Positions 5,491 through 48,877 of a stretch of 64,000 bases of DNA are shown piece after piece; the first letter of the stretch is position 1, and every line of letters starts with the position of its first letter. Where the stretch lies: contig NC_009675.1 of NCBI RefSeq assembly GCF_000017505.1, forward strand, positions 2,232,001-2,296,000, written 5' to 3'. Source of the stretch: Anaeromyxobacter sp. Fw109-5 (GTDB lineage Bacteria; Myxococcota; Myxococcia; Myxococcales; Anaeromyxobacteraceae). A program made the position numbers and the translations under genes. The notes below the pieces were generated by a model. That model searched no databases. It was not told the DNA's origin and worked only from the letters and a program-made list of their open reading frames with translations.

Positions 5491-6243
5491 ATGGGTCGCC
5501 TCAAGGCCGGGCTCGAGGACCTCGGGCGGATGCTCATGTTCGCGGGCGAGATGGTCGGATGGGCCGTCCGGCCGCCGTTCCGGCTCGAGCTCGTGCTCGC
5601 CCAGATGGCCTTCATCGGGGTGGGCTCGGCCTTCATCGTCGGCGTCACCGGGACCTTCGCGGGGATGGTGTTCGCCTTGCAGATGAACTTCGCGATGAAG
5701 CAGTTCGCCGCCGAGGGCTACGTCGGAGGCTCGGTCGCCTTCTCGCTCGCCCGCGAGCTCTCGCCCGTGTTCACCGCGCTCATGGTGACGGGCCGCTCGG
5801 GCAGCGCCATCGCGACGGAGCTCGGCACCATGCGCGTCACCGAGCAGATCGACGCGATGGAGTCGATGGCGGTGAACCCCATCCAGTACCTGGTGGTGCC
5901 CCGGGTGATCGCCTCGCTGATCATGTTCCCGTTCCTCACCATGCTCTTCAACTCGCTCGGCTACGCGGGCGGGTTCGTGATGGGCGTGTACGTGGCGGGG
6001 ATCCCGATCGGCCCGTACCTCGCGCACACCCAGGAGTTCATGGACGTCGGGGACATCCTCCACGGCCTGTTCAAGGCGGTGGTGTTCGGGCTCATCGTCT
6101 CGGTCATCACCACCTGGCGCGGCTACGCCGCGTTCGGCGGCGCGAAGGGCGTGGGCGAGGGCACGACGCGCGGGGTGGTGGCGAGCTCGATCACGATCCT
6201 GCTCGCCGACTACGTCATCACGTTCATCTCGGTGGGGACCTGA
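5491..6243 (+). CDS. mlaE: MlaE-type ABC transporter permease
   Basis: A 250-residue inner-membrane permease of the MlaE/YrbE family, part of the Mla phospholipid transport system between inner and outer membrane. The diagnostic cytoplasmic segment ELGTMRVTEQIDAMESM is present around residues 110-127, after LARELSPVFTALMVTGRSG. Hydrophobic segments fit the usual five to six helices (for example FIGVGSAFIVGVTGTFAGMV and the C-terminal IIVSVITT region). It is the first gene of an mlaE-mlaF-mlaD operon with 3 and 19 bp gaps. Direction of lipid flow cannot be told from sequence. Confidence 0.95.
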   Translation: MGRLKAGLEDLGRMLMFAGEMVGWAVRPPFRLELVLAQMAFIGVGSAFIVGVTGTFAGMVFALQMNFAMKQFAAEGYVGGSVAFSLARELSPVFTALMVTGRSGSAIATELGTMRVTEQIDAMESMAVNPIQYLVVPRVIASLIMFPFLTMLFNSLGYAGGFVMGVYVAGIPIGPYLAHTQEFMDVGDILHGLFKAVVFGLIVSVITTWRGYAAFGGAKGVGEGTTRGVVASSITILLADYVITFISVGT

Positions 6244-6246
6244 GGC

Positions 6247-6993
6247 GTGATCGAGGTCCGCGATCTGTGGAAGTCCTTCGGGGACAACCAGGTGCTGAAG
6301 GGGATCGACCTCACCATCCCGGAGGGCACCACCTTCGTCGTGCTGGGCGGCTCCGGCTCGGGGAAGACCGTGCTCATGAAGCACGTCATCGGCCTGCTCA
6401 AGCCCGACCGCGGCACCGTGCGGGTCGGCGGCGTCGAGATCTCGGCGCTCCACGGGAAGGAGCTCACCGAGGCGCGGCAGATGTTCGGGATGGTGTTCCA
6501 GGGCGCGGCGCTCTTCGACTCGATGACGGTGTTCGAGAACGTCGCCTTCCCGCTCACGGAGAAGCGCCGCGGCGAGCGGATCCCCGCGGCGGAGGTCCGG
6601 CGCCGCGTCATCGAGAAGCTCCGCGTGGTCGACCTGGGGGAGGAGGTCCTCGAGCGCTGGCCGTCCGAGCTCTCCGGCGGCATGCGCAAGCGGGTCGCGC
6701 TCGCGCGCGCGCTCGTGTCGGACCCGCAGGTGGTGCTCTACGACGAGCCGACCACGGGGCTCGATCCCATCACCACCGACTACGTGGACGGCATGATCCT
6801 CAACGCGAAGCGGGCCCTGGGGATCACGAGCATGGTCATCTCCCACGACATCGCGAGCGCCTTCAAGGTGGCCGACCGGCTCGGGGTGCTCTACGATGGG
6901 CACCTCGTCGCCGAGGGTACCCCCGCCGAGGTGCGGGAGAGCCAGGACCCTTTCGTGCAGCGATTCCTCTCGTTGTGGTTCGAGAAGCAGTAG
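6247..6993 (+). CDS. mlaF: MlaF-type ABC transporter ATPase
   Basis: A 248-residue ATPase partner of the MlaE permease. Walker A is GGSGSGKT, the signature is LSGGMRKRVALARAL, Walker B is VVLYDEPTTGLDP and the switch His is in VISHD. The GTG start lies 3 bp after the mlaE stop, implying coupled translation. Full family length. It powers lipid movement through the MlaE dimer, with substrate delivered to or from the MlaD ring. Confidence 0.96.
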   Translation: MIEVRDLWKSFGDNQVLKGIDLTIPEGTTFVVLGGSGSGKTVLMKHVIGLLKPDRGTVRVGGVEISALHGKELTEARQMFGMVFQGAALFDSMTVFENVAFPLTEKRRGERIPAAEVRRRVIEKLRVVDLGEEVLERWPSELSGGMRKRVALARALVSDPQVVLYDEPTTGLDPITTDYVDGMILNAKRALGITSMVISHDIASAFKVADRLGVLYDGHLVAEGTPAEVRESQDPFVQRFLSLWFEKQ

Positions 6994-7012: not shown

Positions 7013-8719
7013 GTGAAGCCGGCCGTCAACAGGGCGCTCGCCGTAGGCATCCTCGCAGCCGTCACCGGCCTCGCGTTCCTCGTCGCCATCACCTTCTTCC
7101 GCAAGGGTGGGTTCTCCGATCGCGACAGCTACCTCGTGCACGCGTACTTCCGGGACGCGACCGGCCTCACCTGGAAGAGCCGCGTGCAGATCGCCGGCAT
7201 CCAGATCGGCGAGGTGGACGACATCCGGCTCGAGGGCGCCCGCGCGCGCCTCGACATCCGGGTGAAGAACGACGTCGAGCTCCACAAGGACGCCTGCCTC
7301 ACCAAGATCTACCCGTCCGCGTTGCTCCCGGACGCCGTCCTCGAGGCGGTCCCCGGCTCCGACGCGTCCCCGAAGCTCAAGGACCTGCCCGAGGAGGAGC
7401 GCGAGATCGCGTGCGCGCGGGCGGCGGCGACGGCGCAGGAGCTCATGGACTCGATGGCGAAGATCGCCTCGGACGTCCAGACGATCACGGGCGACCTGGC
7501 GGACACGGTCAAGGGAGACCAGGGGAGCCTCCGCGAGATCGTGGAGAACCTCGCCCGCATCACGCGCCAGGTGGACCAGGTCGTCGCCGAGGAGGGCCAG
7601 ACGATCTCGGAGATCCTGGCCAACACCCGGGAGTTCACGGGCGCGCTCGCGGAGATCTCGGCCCGCGACAAGGAGCGGATCCACAACATCGCCCGCAACG
7701 TCGAGGACCTCACCTCGCGCCTCAACGTGGTCCTCGCCAGCGTGCAGGACATCCTCGACCCGCAGGGCGGCGGGGCGCCGGGGACGCCGGGGGCGAAGGG
7801 CGTGCCGGGAGCGCCTGGTGCGCCGGGCACGCCTGGGGCGCCGGGTGCTCCGGGGACGCCGGGGGCTCTCGCCGGCACTCCCGAGCAGCGCGCGCAGGCG
7901 CAGGCCGAGGCGCGCGGCGTGAAGCAGGCGGTGGATCGGCTGAACACCAGCCTCGCGAGCCTCGACAGCATGCTCGAGAAGGTGAACGAGGGGAAGAGCC
8001 CGGCGGGCAAGCTCCTCGTGGACGAGCGGCTCGGGCGCAAGGTCGGGGAGGCCGTCGAGGGGATCAGCGACTACGTCGATCGGCTCGTGAAGCTGCAGAT
8101 CCAGCTGCAGCTCCGCTCCGAGTGGCTGCTCAACCAGACCGTCTCCGAGGGTCGCCCCGGCTCCAAGATCTACTTCGGCGCGCGGCTCATGCCCCGGCCG
8201 GACAAGTACTACCTCATCGAGCTGGCCTCGGATCCGCGCGGCGTGAACACCGTCACGACGGAGACGATCACCACGCGCCCTCCGGGCACGAACGTCGAGA
8301 CCACCACGCTCGTCACGCGCACGCTGAACGAGGAGAAGCTCACCTTCTCGCTGCAGCTCGCGAAGCGCTACGGAATGGTCACCTTCCGCGCCGGCCTCAT
8401 CGAGGGCTCGGGCGGCGTCGGCTCCGACCTGCACCTCCTGAACGACGCGCTTCAGCTGTCGGTGAACATGTACCAGTTCTCGCGCCCCGGCCGCTCCGTG
8501 TACCCGCGCGCGAAGATCTGGGCGAACTACCACTTCTTCCAGCACTTCTACGTGACCACGGGCGTCGACGACTTCCTGAACCAGTGGGAGACGGGCAACT
8601 ACCCCGGCGGCCGGAGCTTCAACATCGGCAGCGACGTCTTCTTCGGCGGCGGCCTGTACTTCACCGACGACGACCTCAAGACGCTCATCTCCACGGGCGC
8701 GGCGTCCGCGGTGCCGTGA
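7013..8719 (+). CDS. mlaD: MlaD/MCE-domain lipid-transport protein with collagen-like segment and long C-terminus
   Basis: A 568-residue MCE protein from a GTG start. One N-terminal membrane anchor (residues about 8-27) is followed by the MCE domain with the typical GLTWKSRVQIAGIQIGEVDD stretch. A long helical region follows, then residues 254-286 are eleven unbroken Gly-X-Y triplets rich in Pro, Ala and Thr. Another helix and a C-terminal roughly 190-residue beta-rich domain (FGARLMPRPDKYYLIEL ... GLYFTDDDLKTL) complete it. Canonical MlaD is about 180 residues, so this is a long form that may span the periplasm and insert in or touch the outer membrane. Function as the substrate-binding ring is family knowledge; the spanning role is inference. 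Confidence 0.9.
   Translation: MKPAVNRALAVGILAAVTGLAFLVAITFFRKGGFSDRDSYLVHAYFRDATGLTWKSRVQIAGIQIGEVDDIRLEGARARLDIRVKNDVELHKDACLTKIYPSALLPDAVLEAVPGSDASPKLKDLPEEEREIACARAAATAQELMDSMAKIASDVQTITGDLADTVKGDQGSLREIVENLARITRQVDQVVAEEGQTISEILANTREFTGALAEISARDKERIHNIARNVEDLTSRLNVVLASVQDILDPQGGGAPGTPGAKGVPGAPGAPGTPGAPGAPGTPGALAGTPEQRAQAQAEARGVKQAVDRLNTSLASLDSMLEKVNEGKSPAGKLLVDERLGRKVGEAVEGISDYVDRLVKLQIQLQLRSEWLLNQTVSEGRPGSKIYFGARLMPRPDKYYLIELASDPRGVNTVTTETITTRPPGTNVETTTLVTRTLNEEKLTFSLQLAKRYGMVTFRAGLIEGSGGVGSDLHLLNDALQLSVNMYQFSRPGRSVYPRAKIWANYHFFQHFYVTTGVDDFLNQWETGNYPGGRSFNIGSDVFFGGGLYFTDDDLKTLISTGAASAVP
7772..7870 (+). repeat. collagen-like Gly-X-Y triplet repeat inside mlaD
   Basis: Eleven consecutive codon triplets encode Gly-X-Y (GAP, GTP, GAK, GVP, GAP, GAP, GTP, GAP, GAP, GTP, GAL). 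Proline fills nine of ten Y positions before the last unit except one Lys. The DNA is correspondingly repetitive in a 9-bp register. Confidence 0.9.
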
Positions 8720-40787: not shown

Positions 40788-43700
40788 ATGAACCTCTCGC
40801 GACGGCAGTTCCTCAAGCTCACCTCGTCGGGAATCGGCGCCACCAGCCTCGGCGTGCTCGGCTTCGCGCCGGACGGCGTGCTGGCCGACGTCCGGAACTT
40901 CAAGCTCGCCTCGACGACGCAGACGCGGAACACGTGCCCGTACTGCTCGGTCAGCTGCGGCGTCATCATGTACGGCCTCGGCGATCGCGCGAAGAACGCG
41001 CGCATGCGTCTCGTCCACGTCGAGGGGGATCCGGATCACCCGGTGAACCGCGGCACGCTCTGCCCGAAGGGCGCGGCCCTGCTCGACTTCGTGAACAGCC
41101 CGCACCGGCTCAAGTTCCCCGAGTACCGCGCGCCCGGCTCGACCGAGTGGCAGCGGGTCACCTGGGAATGGGCGCTCGACCGGATCGCGCGCCTCATGAA
41201 GGACGATCGCGACAAGAACTTCATCGCGCAGAACGCGGCCGGCGTGACGGTGAACCGCTGGACCACGGTGGGGATGCTCGCCGCGAGCGCGTCGTCGAAC
41301 GAGTCCGGCTACCTCACGCACAAGGTGTTCCGCTCCATGGGCATGACCGCCATGGACAACCAAGCACGTGTTTGACACGGACCCACGGTGGCCGGTCTGG
41401 CCCCCTCGTTCGGCCGTGGCGCGATGACGAATCACTGGGCGGACATCAAGAACGCCAACGTCGTCGTCGTGATGGGCGGTAACCCCGCGGAGGCTCACCC
41501 CTGCGGCTTCAAGTGGGTGACGGAGGCGAAGGCCCACAACAAGGCGCGCCTCATCGTGGTCGATCCGCGCTTCACGCGCACCGCCGCGGTCGCCGATCAG
41601 TTCGTGCAGATCAGGCCCGGCAGCGACATCGCGTTCCTGGGCGGCGTCATCAACTATCTCCTCTCGAACGACGCCATCCAGCACGAATACGTGAAGGCGT
41701 ACACCAACGCGTCCCTGATCGTGCGCGAGGACTACGCCTTCGAGGACGGGCTGTTCTCGGGCTACGACGAGGCCGGCCGCAAGTACGACAAGACCACCTG
41801 GACGTACGAGCTCGGGCCGGACGGCTACGCCAAGGTCGATCCGACGCTCCAGGATCCGCGCTGCGTGTTCCAGCTCCTGAAGAAGCACTACGCCCGCTAC
41901 ACGCCGGAGGTCGTGTCCTCGGTCACCGGCGCGGGCAAGGAGGAGTTCCTCCAGGTCTGCAAGACCATCGCGTCCACCGCGCCGCCCGACCGGACCATGA
42001 CGAGCCTCTACGCGCTCGGCTGGACCCAGCACACCGTCGGGGCACAGAACATCCGCGCGATGGCGATGATCCAGCTCCTGCTCGGCAACGTGGGGATGGC
42101 GGGCGGTGGCGTGAACGCGCTCCGCGGCCACTCGAACATCCAGGGGCTCACCGACCTCGGCGTCCTCTCGGACCTGCTGCCCGGCTACCTCACCATCCCG
42201 AAGGAGACCGACAAGGACCTCGACACCTACCTCGCGGCCCGCACGCTGAAGCCGCTGCGGCCCGGGCAGATGAGCTACTGGCAGAACTACCCCAAGTTCT
42301 TCGTCTCGCTGCAGAAGGCGTGGTGGGGCAACGCCGCGACGAAGGAGAACCAGTGGGCCTACGAGTACCTGCCCAAGCTCGACAAGCTCTACGACATCCT
42401 CACCGTGTTCGACCTCATGCACCAGGGGAAGGTGAACGGGTACATCTGCCAGGGCTTCAACCCGCTCGCCGCCGCGCCGAACAAGGGGAAGAACATCGAG
42501 GCGCTGGCGAAGCTCAAGTTCCTCGTCGTGATCGATCCGCTCGTCACCGAGACCTCCACGTTCTGGAAGAACGCGGGTGAGTTCAACCCGGTCGACAGCG
42601 CGAAGATCGAGACGGAGGTGTTCCGGCTGCCGTCCGGCTGCTTCGCCGAGGAGGACGGCTCGCTCACGAACTCCGGGCGGTGGCTGCAGTGGCACTACAA
42701 GGGCGCCGAGCCGCCCGGCGAGGCGAAGACCGACCTCGAGATCATGGGCGAGCTGTTCCACAAGGTCCGCACCCTCTACGTGAAGGAGGGAGGGGCGTTC
42801 CCGGACCCCATCGTGAAGCTCGCCTGGCCGTACGCGGTCCCGAACCGGCCGTCGGCCGAGGAGGTCGCGCGCGAGTACAACGGCTGGGCGCTCGCCGATC
42901 TCCCCGATCCGAAGGACAAGACGAAGGTGCTGGTGAAGCGCGGTGACCAGCTCACGACGTTCGGGCAGCTCACCGACGACGGCTCCACCGCGTCCGGCTG
43001 CTGGATCTACACCGGCAGCTACACCGACAAGAACAACATGGCGCGCCGCGACACCTCCGATCCGAGCGGGCTCGGGCTGACGCCGTCATGGGGATGGGCG
43101 TGGCCGCTCAACCGGCGCGTCCTCTACAACGCGGCGTCGTGCGATCCGACGGGGAAGCCCTGGGACCCGCGCCGCGCGCTCGTGAAGTGGAACGGCGAGA
43201 AGTGGGTCGGCGCCGACGTGCCCGACTTCAAGGTGGACCAACCGCCCGAATCCGAGTCCGGGATGTCGCCGTTCATCATGAACCCGGAGGGCATGGGGCG
43301 GCTCTTCGCCGTCGACAAGATGGCCGACGGGCCGTTCCCCGAGCACTACGAGCCGTTCGAGAGCCCGCTCGTGAAGAACCCGATGCACGAGCGGGCCGTG
43401 GCGAGCACCAACCCCGCGGCGCGCATCTTCGCGGCGGACAAGGCCGCGCTCGGCACCTCGGACAAGTTCCCGTACGCCGCGACCACTTACCGGCTGACCG
43501 AGCACTTCCACTTCTGGTCGAAGCACGTCCAGATGCTCGCGGTGGTCCAGCCGGAGCAGTTCGTCGAGATCGGCGAGGCGCTCGCGAAGGAGAAGGGAAT
43601 CCGGAACGGCGAGAAGATCCGGGTGCGCTCGAACCGGGGCGAGATCGTCGCCAAGGCGGTGGTCACGAAGCGCATCCGGCCGCTCACGATCGCGGGGAAG

Positions 43701-47160: not shown

Positions 47161-48877
47161 AGACGTCGAGGCGGCCGCCGTCCACGAGCCGGCAGACCGC
47201 CTCGATGTCGCGGTGCAGCTCGCGGTCCTCGTCGAGGCGCGGAACGGCCTCGCGGATCCGCCGGTGCGCCTCGGCGACCTTCGCCGCGGGGCGCAGCGGG
47301 GCGCGGAGATCGAGCGCCTGGGCCGCCACGAGCAGCTCGATGGCGAGGCAGGTGCGGACGTTCTCGACCACCTGCCGCGCCTTGAGCGCCGCGGTCATGC
47401 CCATCGACACGTGATCCTCCCGCCCCGCCGAGGACGGGATGGAGTCCACCGAGGCGGGGTGGCAGAGGACCTTGTTCTCGGAGACCAGCGCCGCGCTCGT
47501 CACCTGCGCGATCATGAACCCAGAGTTGAGGCCATGGCGCGGCGCCAGGAACGGCGGCAGCCCCGAGAGCGACGGGTTCACGAGCTGCTCGACGCGCCGC
47601 TCCGAGATGGCCGCGAGGTGCGACGCGGAGATCGCGAGGACGTCCAGCGCGAGCGCCACCGGCTGGCCGTGGAAGTTGCCGCCCGACACGATCTCGCCGG
47701 TATCCGGGAAGACGAGCGGGTTGTCCGTGGCCGCGTTCACCTCGCGGCCCAGGGTGGCCCGGCAGAAGGCGATCCCGTCCCGGGCGGCGCCGTGGACCTG
47801 GGGCATGCAGCGGAGCGAGTAGGGGTCCTGCACCTTGTGGCATCCGGGCCCCTGGTGCGAGGCGTTCAGCTCCGACGCCGAGAGCAGGTCGCGCAGGCGC
47901 GCCGCCGCCGCGATCTGGCCGGGCTGGCCGCGGACGGCCTGGATCTCCGCGGCGAACGGGCGGTGCGAGCCGAGGAGCCCCTCGAGCGTCATCGCGCCGG
48001 CGAGGTCGGCGAGCGCGGCGAGCCGCTCGGCTCGGAGCAGCGTGAGCGTCCCGACTGCCGCCATCGCCTGCGTCCCGTTGACGAGCGCCAGCCCCTCCTT
48101 CGGCTGCAGCACGACCTGTGCGAGTCCCACGCGGCGAAGCGCCTCCCGCGAGGGCAAGCGCTCCGCGGCGAGGCGGTGGTGCTCGGCGGCGAGCGCAGGG
48201 GCAGCCGGATGAGGCTGCCCCGGAGCGAGGGGGGGCCTGGGGGGCGCAGCATCATCGCGCCCCCCAGCGGCGAGCGCAGGGGCAGCCGGATGAGGCTGCC
48301 CCGGAGCGAGGGGGGGCCTGGGGGGCGCAGCATCATCGCGCCCCCCAGCAAGAAGAAAGGCCTCCCCCTCGCCGATCAGCAGGAGGGCGAGATGGGCGAG
48401 GGGGGCGAGGTCGCCGGACGCGCCTACGGAGCCACGCTCCGGCACGACGGGGATCACCCCGCGCTCGAGGAGCGCGAGCAGGAGGTCCAGGGTCTCCTCC
48501 CGGATTCCCGAGACCCCCTTCGCGAGCACGTTCGCGCGGAGCAGCATGAGGGCGCGCGCCTCGGCGAGCGGGAGCGGCGCGCCGACCCCCGCGGCGTGGG
48601 AGAGGACGAGGTTGCGCTGCAGCCGCTCGAGGTCGGGGCGGTCGATGCGCACCTCCGCGAGCGTGCCGAACCCGGTGTTGATGCCGTAGTGCGGCTCGCC
48701 GTCCTCGAGGCGCGCCTCGACGAGCGCCCGCGACCGCCGCACCCGCTCGCGCGCGCCGGGGGAGAGCTCCGCCCGCGCGCGCCCCAGCGCCACCGCCTCG
48801 ACCTCCTCCAGCGTGAGGGTGTCGCCGTCGAGGAGGACGTGGGTCCGGATCTCCTTGCCATTCGCGCCGTGGCTCAT
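47159..48877 (-). CDS. hutH: histidine ammonia-lyase with a duplicated in-frame insert
   Basis: A 572-residue enzyme converting histidine to urocanate. The MIO cofactor forms from Ala153-Ser154-Gly155 in [12 protein letters not shown]. Other landmarks are [19 protein letters not shown] and [20 protein letters not shown]. Typical length is about 505; the extra about 55 residues are an Ala/Pro-rich insert (about 177-231) that is two copies of a 27-residue unit. It sits in the loop after [10 protein letters not shown], outside the active site. No other hut gene is adjacent. The ATG at 48877 has GGAAGG upstream. Confidence 0.95.
48186..48349. repeat. 81-bp palindromic unit, two tandem copies inside hutH
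   Basis: Copies at 48186-48266 and 48267-48347 are identical at every base I compared; two bases of a third follow. Each unit holds two hairpins: GGGGCAGCC-GGATGA-GGCTGCCCC (48198-48221 in copy 1) and GGGGGGCGC-N9-GCGCCCCCC (48239-48265). Length 81 is a multiple of three, so hutH stays in frame. Confidence 0.92.

Follow-up and report, generated by a model that had tools for sequence, protein, structure and literature searches.

Background

How do the chains of a long MlaD protein pass from a six-fold helical tunnel to the beta-barrels of the outer membrane? The mlaD gene of Anaeromyxobacter sp. Fw109-5 bears on this question, as it carries a collagen-like insert at the junction between the two. 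MlaD of Veillonella parvula has been proposed to form a hexamer bridging both membranes, and the same paper considers a hexameric ring of barrels improbable (Grasekamp et al. 2023, PMC10665443). We analysed the insert within a stretch of 64,000 nucleotides of the genome, referred to here as the window. An earlier reading of the letters alone (the sequence-only reading) had suggested that it might be a flexible or trimerising spacer in a lipid-transport protein.

Host gene and predicted domain layout

The host genome is a single contig of 5.28 Mb, 99.96% complete, in which mlaD is the last gene of an mlaE-mlaF-mlaD cluster (Table 1). The closest named relatives of the protein are found in Anaeromyxobacter soli and A. 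terrae, at 84-85% identity. MlaD is the only MCE-domain match in the whole genome. Searches for MlaC (PF05494) and MlaA (PF04333) gave no match in this nearly complete genome, while the same searches were positive in E. coli and Caulobacter. The locus is therefore of the kind associated with long MlaD proteins, i.e. an mlaEFD cluster without the MlaC shuttle or MlaA.

Table 1. Features of the mla cluster and of MlaD in window coordinates
Feature	Position	Strand	Basis
mlaE, MCE ABC transporter permease	5491..6243	+	Pfam PF02405 MlaE, E 1e-76
mlaF-type ATPase, between mlaE and mlaD	6247..6993	+	Pfam ABC_tran, E 3.1e-33
mlaD, 568 aa, GTG start at 7013, stop 8717-8719	7013..8719	+	Pfam PF02470, E 2.9e-11, residues 39-114
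N-terminal transmembrane helix, residues 7-31	7031..7105	+	AlphaFold2 helix H7-31
MCE domain, residues 39-113	7127..7351	+	Pfam 39-114; E. coli MlaD core 5uw8
Long tunnel-type alpha-helical region, residues 141-247	7433..7753	+	AlphaFold2 H141-167, H173-247; pLDDT about 42-57 (low)
Inserted linker, residues 248-289, unstructured in model	7754..7879	+	pLDDT about 31-44; missing in relatives outside the clade
Gly-X-Y tract, 11 perfect triplets, residues 254-286	7772..7870	+	Translation, Tandem Repeats Finder, shuffling
Outer-membrane-proximal helices, residues 290-359	7880..8089	+	AlphaFold2 H290-325, H330-335, H338-359
C-terminal outer-membrane-type beta-barrel, residues 362-550	8096..8662	+	AlphaFold2 strands, many blocks with pLDDT 80-93

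The structure of MlaD was predicted as a monomer with AlphaFold2, using 36 aligned orthologues. An N-terminal transmembrane helix and a single MCE domain are found by Pfam, by AlphaFold2 and by the match to the E. coli MlaD core (Z 15.9, rmsd 1.6 Å over 97 residues), and the assignment of the host as a long MCE protein of the MlaD family thus agrees with the sequence-only reading. The MCE domain is followed in the model by an extended alpha-helical region, the long helix of which has low pLDDT. The strands at the C-terminus match outer-membrane barrels, the best being OpcA (1k24; Z 16.2, 145 residues, rmsd 3.5 Å). A structure search with the model returned many MCE and outer-membrane-barrel matches, with 8fef/8fed as top Foldseek matches. 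The linker gave no match in this search, for which it is too disordered.

As had been supposed, the tract lies between helical regions, and the model has predicted helices on either side of it. The helices on the C-terminal side carry a conserved GK..AGKLL..DERLG segment, in which G327, G332 and L334 are invariant. The linker itself has no regular structure in the model, and the low pLDDT of a monomer says nothing about a triple helix.

MlaD fits the transenvelope type described in PMC10665443, because it is the only MCE protein, has no MlaC or MlaA match beside it and ends in a C-terminal barrel. By analogy, MlaD would span the periplasm and its complex would be hexameric.

The Gly-X-Y tract

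Translation of the 99 nucleotides reads GAP GTP GAK GVP GAP GAP GTP GAP GAP GTP GAL without interruption, which bears out the eleven perfect triplets counted earlier. The underlying 9-bp array was found independently by Tandem Repeats Finder (7772-7866, 10.6 copies, 70% matches). A run of 11 triplets was never obtained in 20,000 residue shuffles of the 44-residue linker (p 5e-5, the resolution limit), and such p-values are descriptive and do not refer to independent events, since the copies arose by duplication. An uninterrupted Gly-X-Y array, as in bacterial collagen-like proteins, is present with 11 triplets in the window and with 7-11 across the genus. The tract scores 18.8 bits against the Pfam Collagen family (PF01391), below the cut-off of 27.2 bits.

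A collagen-like open reading frame is also matched on the minus strand over 7772-7870. We rejected it as an artefact of a self-complementary codon pattern: shifted by one base, (GGN GCN CCN)n equals its own reverse complement, and the minus strand therefore also reads as G-x-P repeats. This antisense Gly-x-Pro frame is open for about 250 codons and is a trap for homology searches.

Insertion site and origin

The site was compared in relatives inside and outside the family. It holds 6-9 residues, typically VGSGEGE, in 19 aligned genomes of the order outside the family, and 4-13 residues in the insert-free genera inside it. These insert-free relatives keep the flanking helices and the remaining protein. 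In the model of one of them (L025), a loop of 7 residues (245-251) connects two helices at the equivalent place. Because insert-free relatives have a short loop there, the tract occupies a pre-existing helix break and replaces no helix.

When the whole order was searched, 96 of 99 genomes gave a match to the protein; among the matches listed, full-length single ones occur only in insert-bearing family members and the others are split at the insert. On a tree from which the linker columns were left out, parsimony places just one transition from the insert-free to the insert-bearing state. Most simply, then, the tract would have been gained once, with two gains possible given that the node joining both insert-bearing lineages is weakly supported (80/56).

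The loop of L020 (G018), from a genus that otherwise lacks the insert, is 13 residues long (VGPGGPGQPGQAE) and contains three nascent Gly-X-Y triplets. It is perhaps an independent start of a similar expansion.

Length variation and repeat turnover

Run lengths were compared between species, with one genome per species. The longest perfect run is 11 triplets in the window species, A. terrae and A. soli, and 9 (G001), 9 (G002), 8 (G005) and 7 (G007) in other members of the genus. The tract is thus neither absent nor broken in all relatives, and the variation in triplet number that had been predicted from the 9-bp repeat is seen among species, in 9-bp steps. The difference of one triplet between G001/G002 and G005 is consistent with repeat turnover.

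Synonymous divergence points in the same direction. In four comparisons dS was 0.53, 0.49, 0.68 and 1.00 in the linker vs 0.12, 0.14, 0.16 and 0.29 in the flanks (about 3-4.5 times higher), which is what duplication, loss and reshuffling of copies should produce.

In the sister genera the longest run is 10 (G020), 6 (G010), 4 (G015), 4 (G017) and 1 (G012). The last two belong to one sister genus and have linkers of 45 and 51 residues at the site, rich in Gly, Ser, Thr and Ala, in which the register is no better than in shuffled residues (permutation p 0.50 for the run of 4 in G017). Since these linkers have little or no register, linkers that differ widely in sequence and length can be accommodated at the site.

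In three draft genomes, G004, G008 and G022 (L014/L037, L038/L058, L039, L040/L057, L041/L021), contigs end at the tract. This is probably due to the GC-rich, self-complementary repeat breaking sequencing or assembly.

Constraint on glycine

All four glycine codons are used in the tract of the window. We then considered units that differ from GAP by one residue in nine linkers: 17 of the 33 changes fall on X, 16 on Y and none on Gly; these counts are not all independent, as the species are related. The dN/dS ratio is about equally low in the linker (0.02-0.27) and in the flanks (0.07-0.31). The comparison of Gly with X and Y was preferred over this ratio because copy shuffling inflates dS.

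Within Anaeromyxobacter these substitutions, together with the neutral simulation described below, are moderate evidence that glycine is constrained and that X and Y are freer. Such a constraint fits a triple helix, and it might equally fit a chain that avoids charged or bulky replacements. A purely flexible linker needs no glycine at every third place, yet glycine never changed, which makes some structure requiring the glycine register plausible within the genus.

Possible roles of the tract

We consider it probable that the tract is a lineage-specific, slippage-expanded insertion acting as an extended, length-tolerant hinge or tether in an envelope-spanning MlaD. A tolerant spacer is the most likely role because the length varies between species and glycine is conserved. 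Slippage of the 9-bp repeat would expand the insertion at the short break between the tunnel helix and the outer-membrane-proximal helices. The six chains would leave the helical tunnel, cross the Gly/Ala/Pro-rich segment and re-enter a helix before the outer-membrane barrels. The segment would act as a flexible spacer, the ends anchored in the inner and in the outer membrane would be free to move or to differ in spacing, and lipid handling would be left to the conserved parts of MlaD.

The main rival is that the tract folds as collagen, six MlaD chains giving two triple helices (or three chains doing so) that act as a semi-rigid strut from tunnel to barrels. We regard this as unlikely. It would account for the register being perfect, over 7-11 triplets, wherever in the genus the tract is fully assembled, for the retention of glycine while X and Y vary, and for the charged residues that in places keep to the register (GAR GEP in A. 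soli and A. terrae, GAK in the window), few as these are. There is also a precedent in Bucl8 of Burkholderia, where a proline-free (GAS)n array of variable length, 6-38 repeats among isolates, sits on a trimeric outer-membrane channel and is triple-helical by CD (PMC7682875). In addition, Grasekamp et al. (PMC10665443) considered that the barrels of V. parvula MlaD might be fused as trimers.

The placement of proline argues against a strut. In the nine MlaD tracts pooled, proline occupies 6/82 X positions and 54/82 Y positions, opposite to 19 other collagen-like tracts of the family and order (X 283/680, Y 72/680). In bacterial collagens Pro is preferred in X and Thr in Y, and a Pro in Y is of benefit chiefly after hydroxylation (PMC8968730, PMC3368898). 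The bacterial type of triplet, with Pro in X and Thr/Gln or charged residues in Y, is not the one that makes up the MlaD tracts, and the prolyl-hydroxylase-type domain PF13640, the sole hydroxylase family searched, has no match in the genome. A literature search returned no paper on the triple-helix propensity of (Gly-Ala-Pro)n.

Geometry is a further argument. Collagen rises by about 2.9 Å per residue. By that rise 33 residues would form a rigid rod of about 95 Å, and the tract of another genus member one of about 60 Å. Softness is favoured because such a rod would differ by about 35 Å (7-11 triplets) among congeners, and because other genera without the tract keep the same helices. Moreover, lipid could not pass inside a triple helix, which lacks a lumen.

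Of the two options in the sequence-only reading, a spacer between the helices of an MCE protein of the predicted periplasm-bridging type stands. Trimerisation is not supported as it was put forward, given that proline is placed differently in the other collagen-like proteins of the host, that a triple helix lacks a lumen and that the sister genus has linkers of the same length without register. A more elaborate form, in which six chains leave the hexameric lipid tunnel and form two collagen triple helices as struts to possibly trimeric outer-membrane barrels, seems improbable to us; it would imply a change from six to two-times-three symmetry in a lipid bridge, with a length tuned by slippage.

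Second among the rivals is neutral repeat expansion, i.e. that the site tolerates anything and the Gly-X-Y pattern merely reflects the copying of a single 9-bp unit in a genome rich in GC. High synonymous turnover in the linker, a sister genus that lost or never had the register, the Gly, Ala and Pro codons that high-GC sequence yields, and the intact remaining protein of insert-free relatives are all as it would predict. To this we assign little probability, since it leaves the absence of glycine changes among the single-step GAP variants unaccounted for, and the linker has a dN/dS about as low as that of the flanks, albeit with the inflated dS noted above. Neutral evolution was simulated with point mutation and copy turnover until silent diversity matched that of the tract in the window. 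At the observed third-position diversity, the simulated arrays kept on average only 5.4-5.7 of 11 glycines, and all 11 were kept in 0.3% of the runs without slippage and in 8% with heavy slippage.

Selection of the nucleotide sequence as a strong mRNA hairpin slowing translation is very improbable and was rejected: the tract RNA does form one long hairpin (-87.5 kcal/mol, z -3.64 vs dinucleotide shuffles) and three relatives have contigs ending there, but the energy is the same when codons are exchanged between identical residues (z -0.13 in the window, -0.34 to +2.39 in nine relatives), so that the hairpin simply follows from the repeat at the amino-acid level.

Other features of the window

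Two further elements were observed outside the mla cluster, both on the plus strand. At 41370-41428 a bacterial SECIS element (Rfam SECIS_3, 77 bits) lies immediately at the in-frame TGA codon of a selenoprotein resembling formate dehydrogenase, in the context NQARV-U-HGPTVAGLAPSFGRGAMTNHW; this is an ordinary selenocysteine gene. At 48186-48349 an 81-bp unit with a GC-rich inverted repeat occurs in perfect tandem, in two copies that are 100% identical. This duplication is possibly recent.

Relation to known systems and significance

The V. parvula protein, as described in the available text of PMC10665443, has the same order of parts, namely a transmembrane helix, one MCE domain, extended helices and a C-terminal outer-membrane barrel, and likewise belongs to an mlaEFD cluster for which no MlaC or MlaA was found. 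It has 419 residues vs 568 here, where the Gly-X-Y insert interrupts the helical region. No collagen-like insert was found described for MlaD of this type in that text or in literature searches. In the Mce1 complex of Mycobacterium smegmatis (8fef/8fed) the MCE domain likewise leads into a long helical tunnel. This complex differs in being a heterohexamer without a full C-terminal barrel on each chain, and its available description contains no Gly-X-Y insert.

Two collagen-like systems are comparable in the array itself. Like MlaD, Bucl8 (Burkholderia collagen-like protein 8, PMC7682875) is an envelope-channel protein bearing a Gly-X-Y array whose repeat number varies. It is a TolC-like trimer whose triple-helical array is predicted to be extracellular, whereas the MlaD tract is internal, predicted to be periplasmic and known from sequence. 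The collagen-like prophage proteins of E. coli (PMC3368898) have a Gly-X-Y array beside an alpha-helical coiled coil and differ in length by multiples of three residues. Their proline is mostly in X, they have many charged residues and they possess dedicated trimerisation domains, whereas MlaD has Pro in Y and no trimerisation domain was identified in it.

A long MlaD bearing a barrel is thus already known. A collagen-like insert in an MCE protein is apparently unreported, as no report of one in any MCE protein was found in the open-access literature.

The insertion occurs naturally, precisely at this junction, in one clade and not in neighbouring ones, which makes it a ready-made test of a sealed tunnel vs a loose tether. 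If the junction can accommodate a long and variable spacer, these bacteria are unlikely to have an unbroken, sealed protein tunnel there. Under the bridge model, Anaeromyxobacter would not need a tunnel that is sealed where the tract lies.
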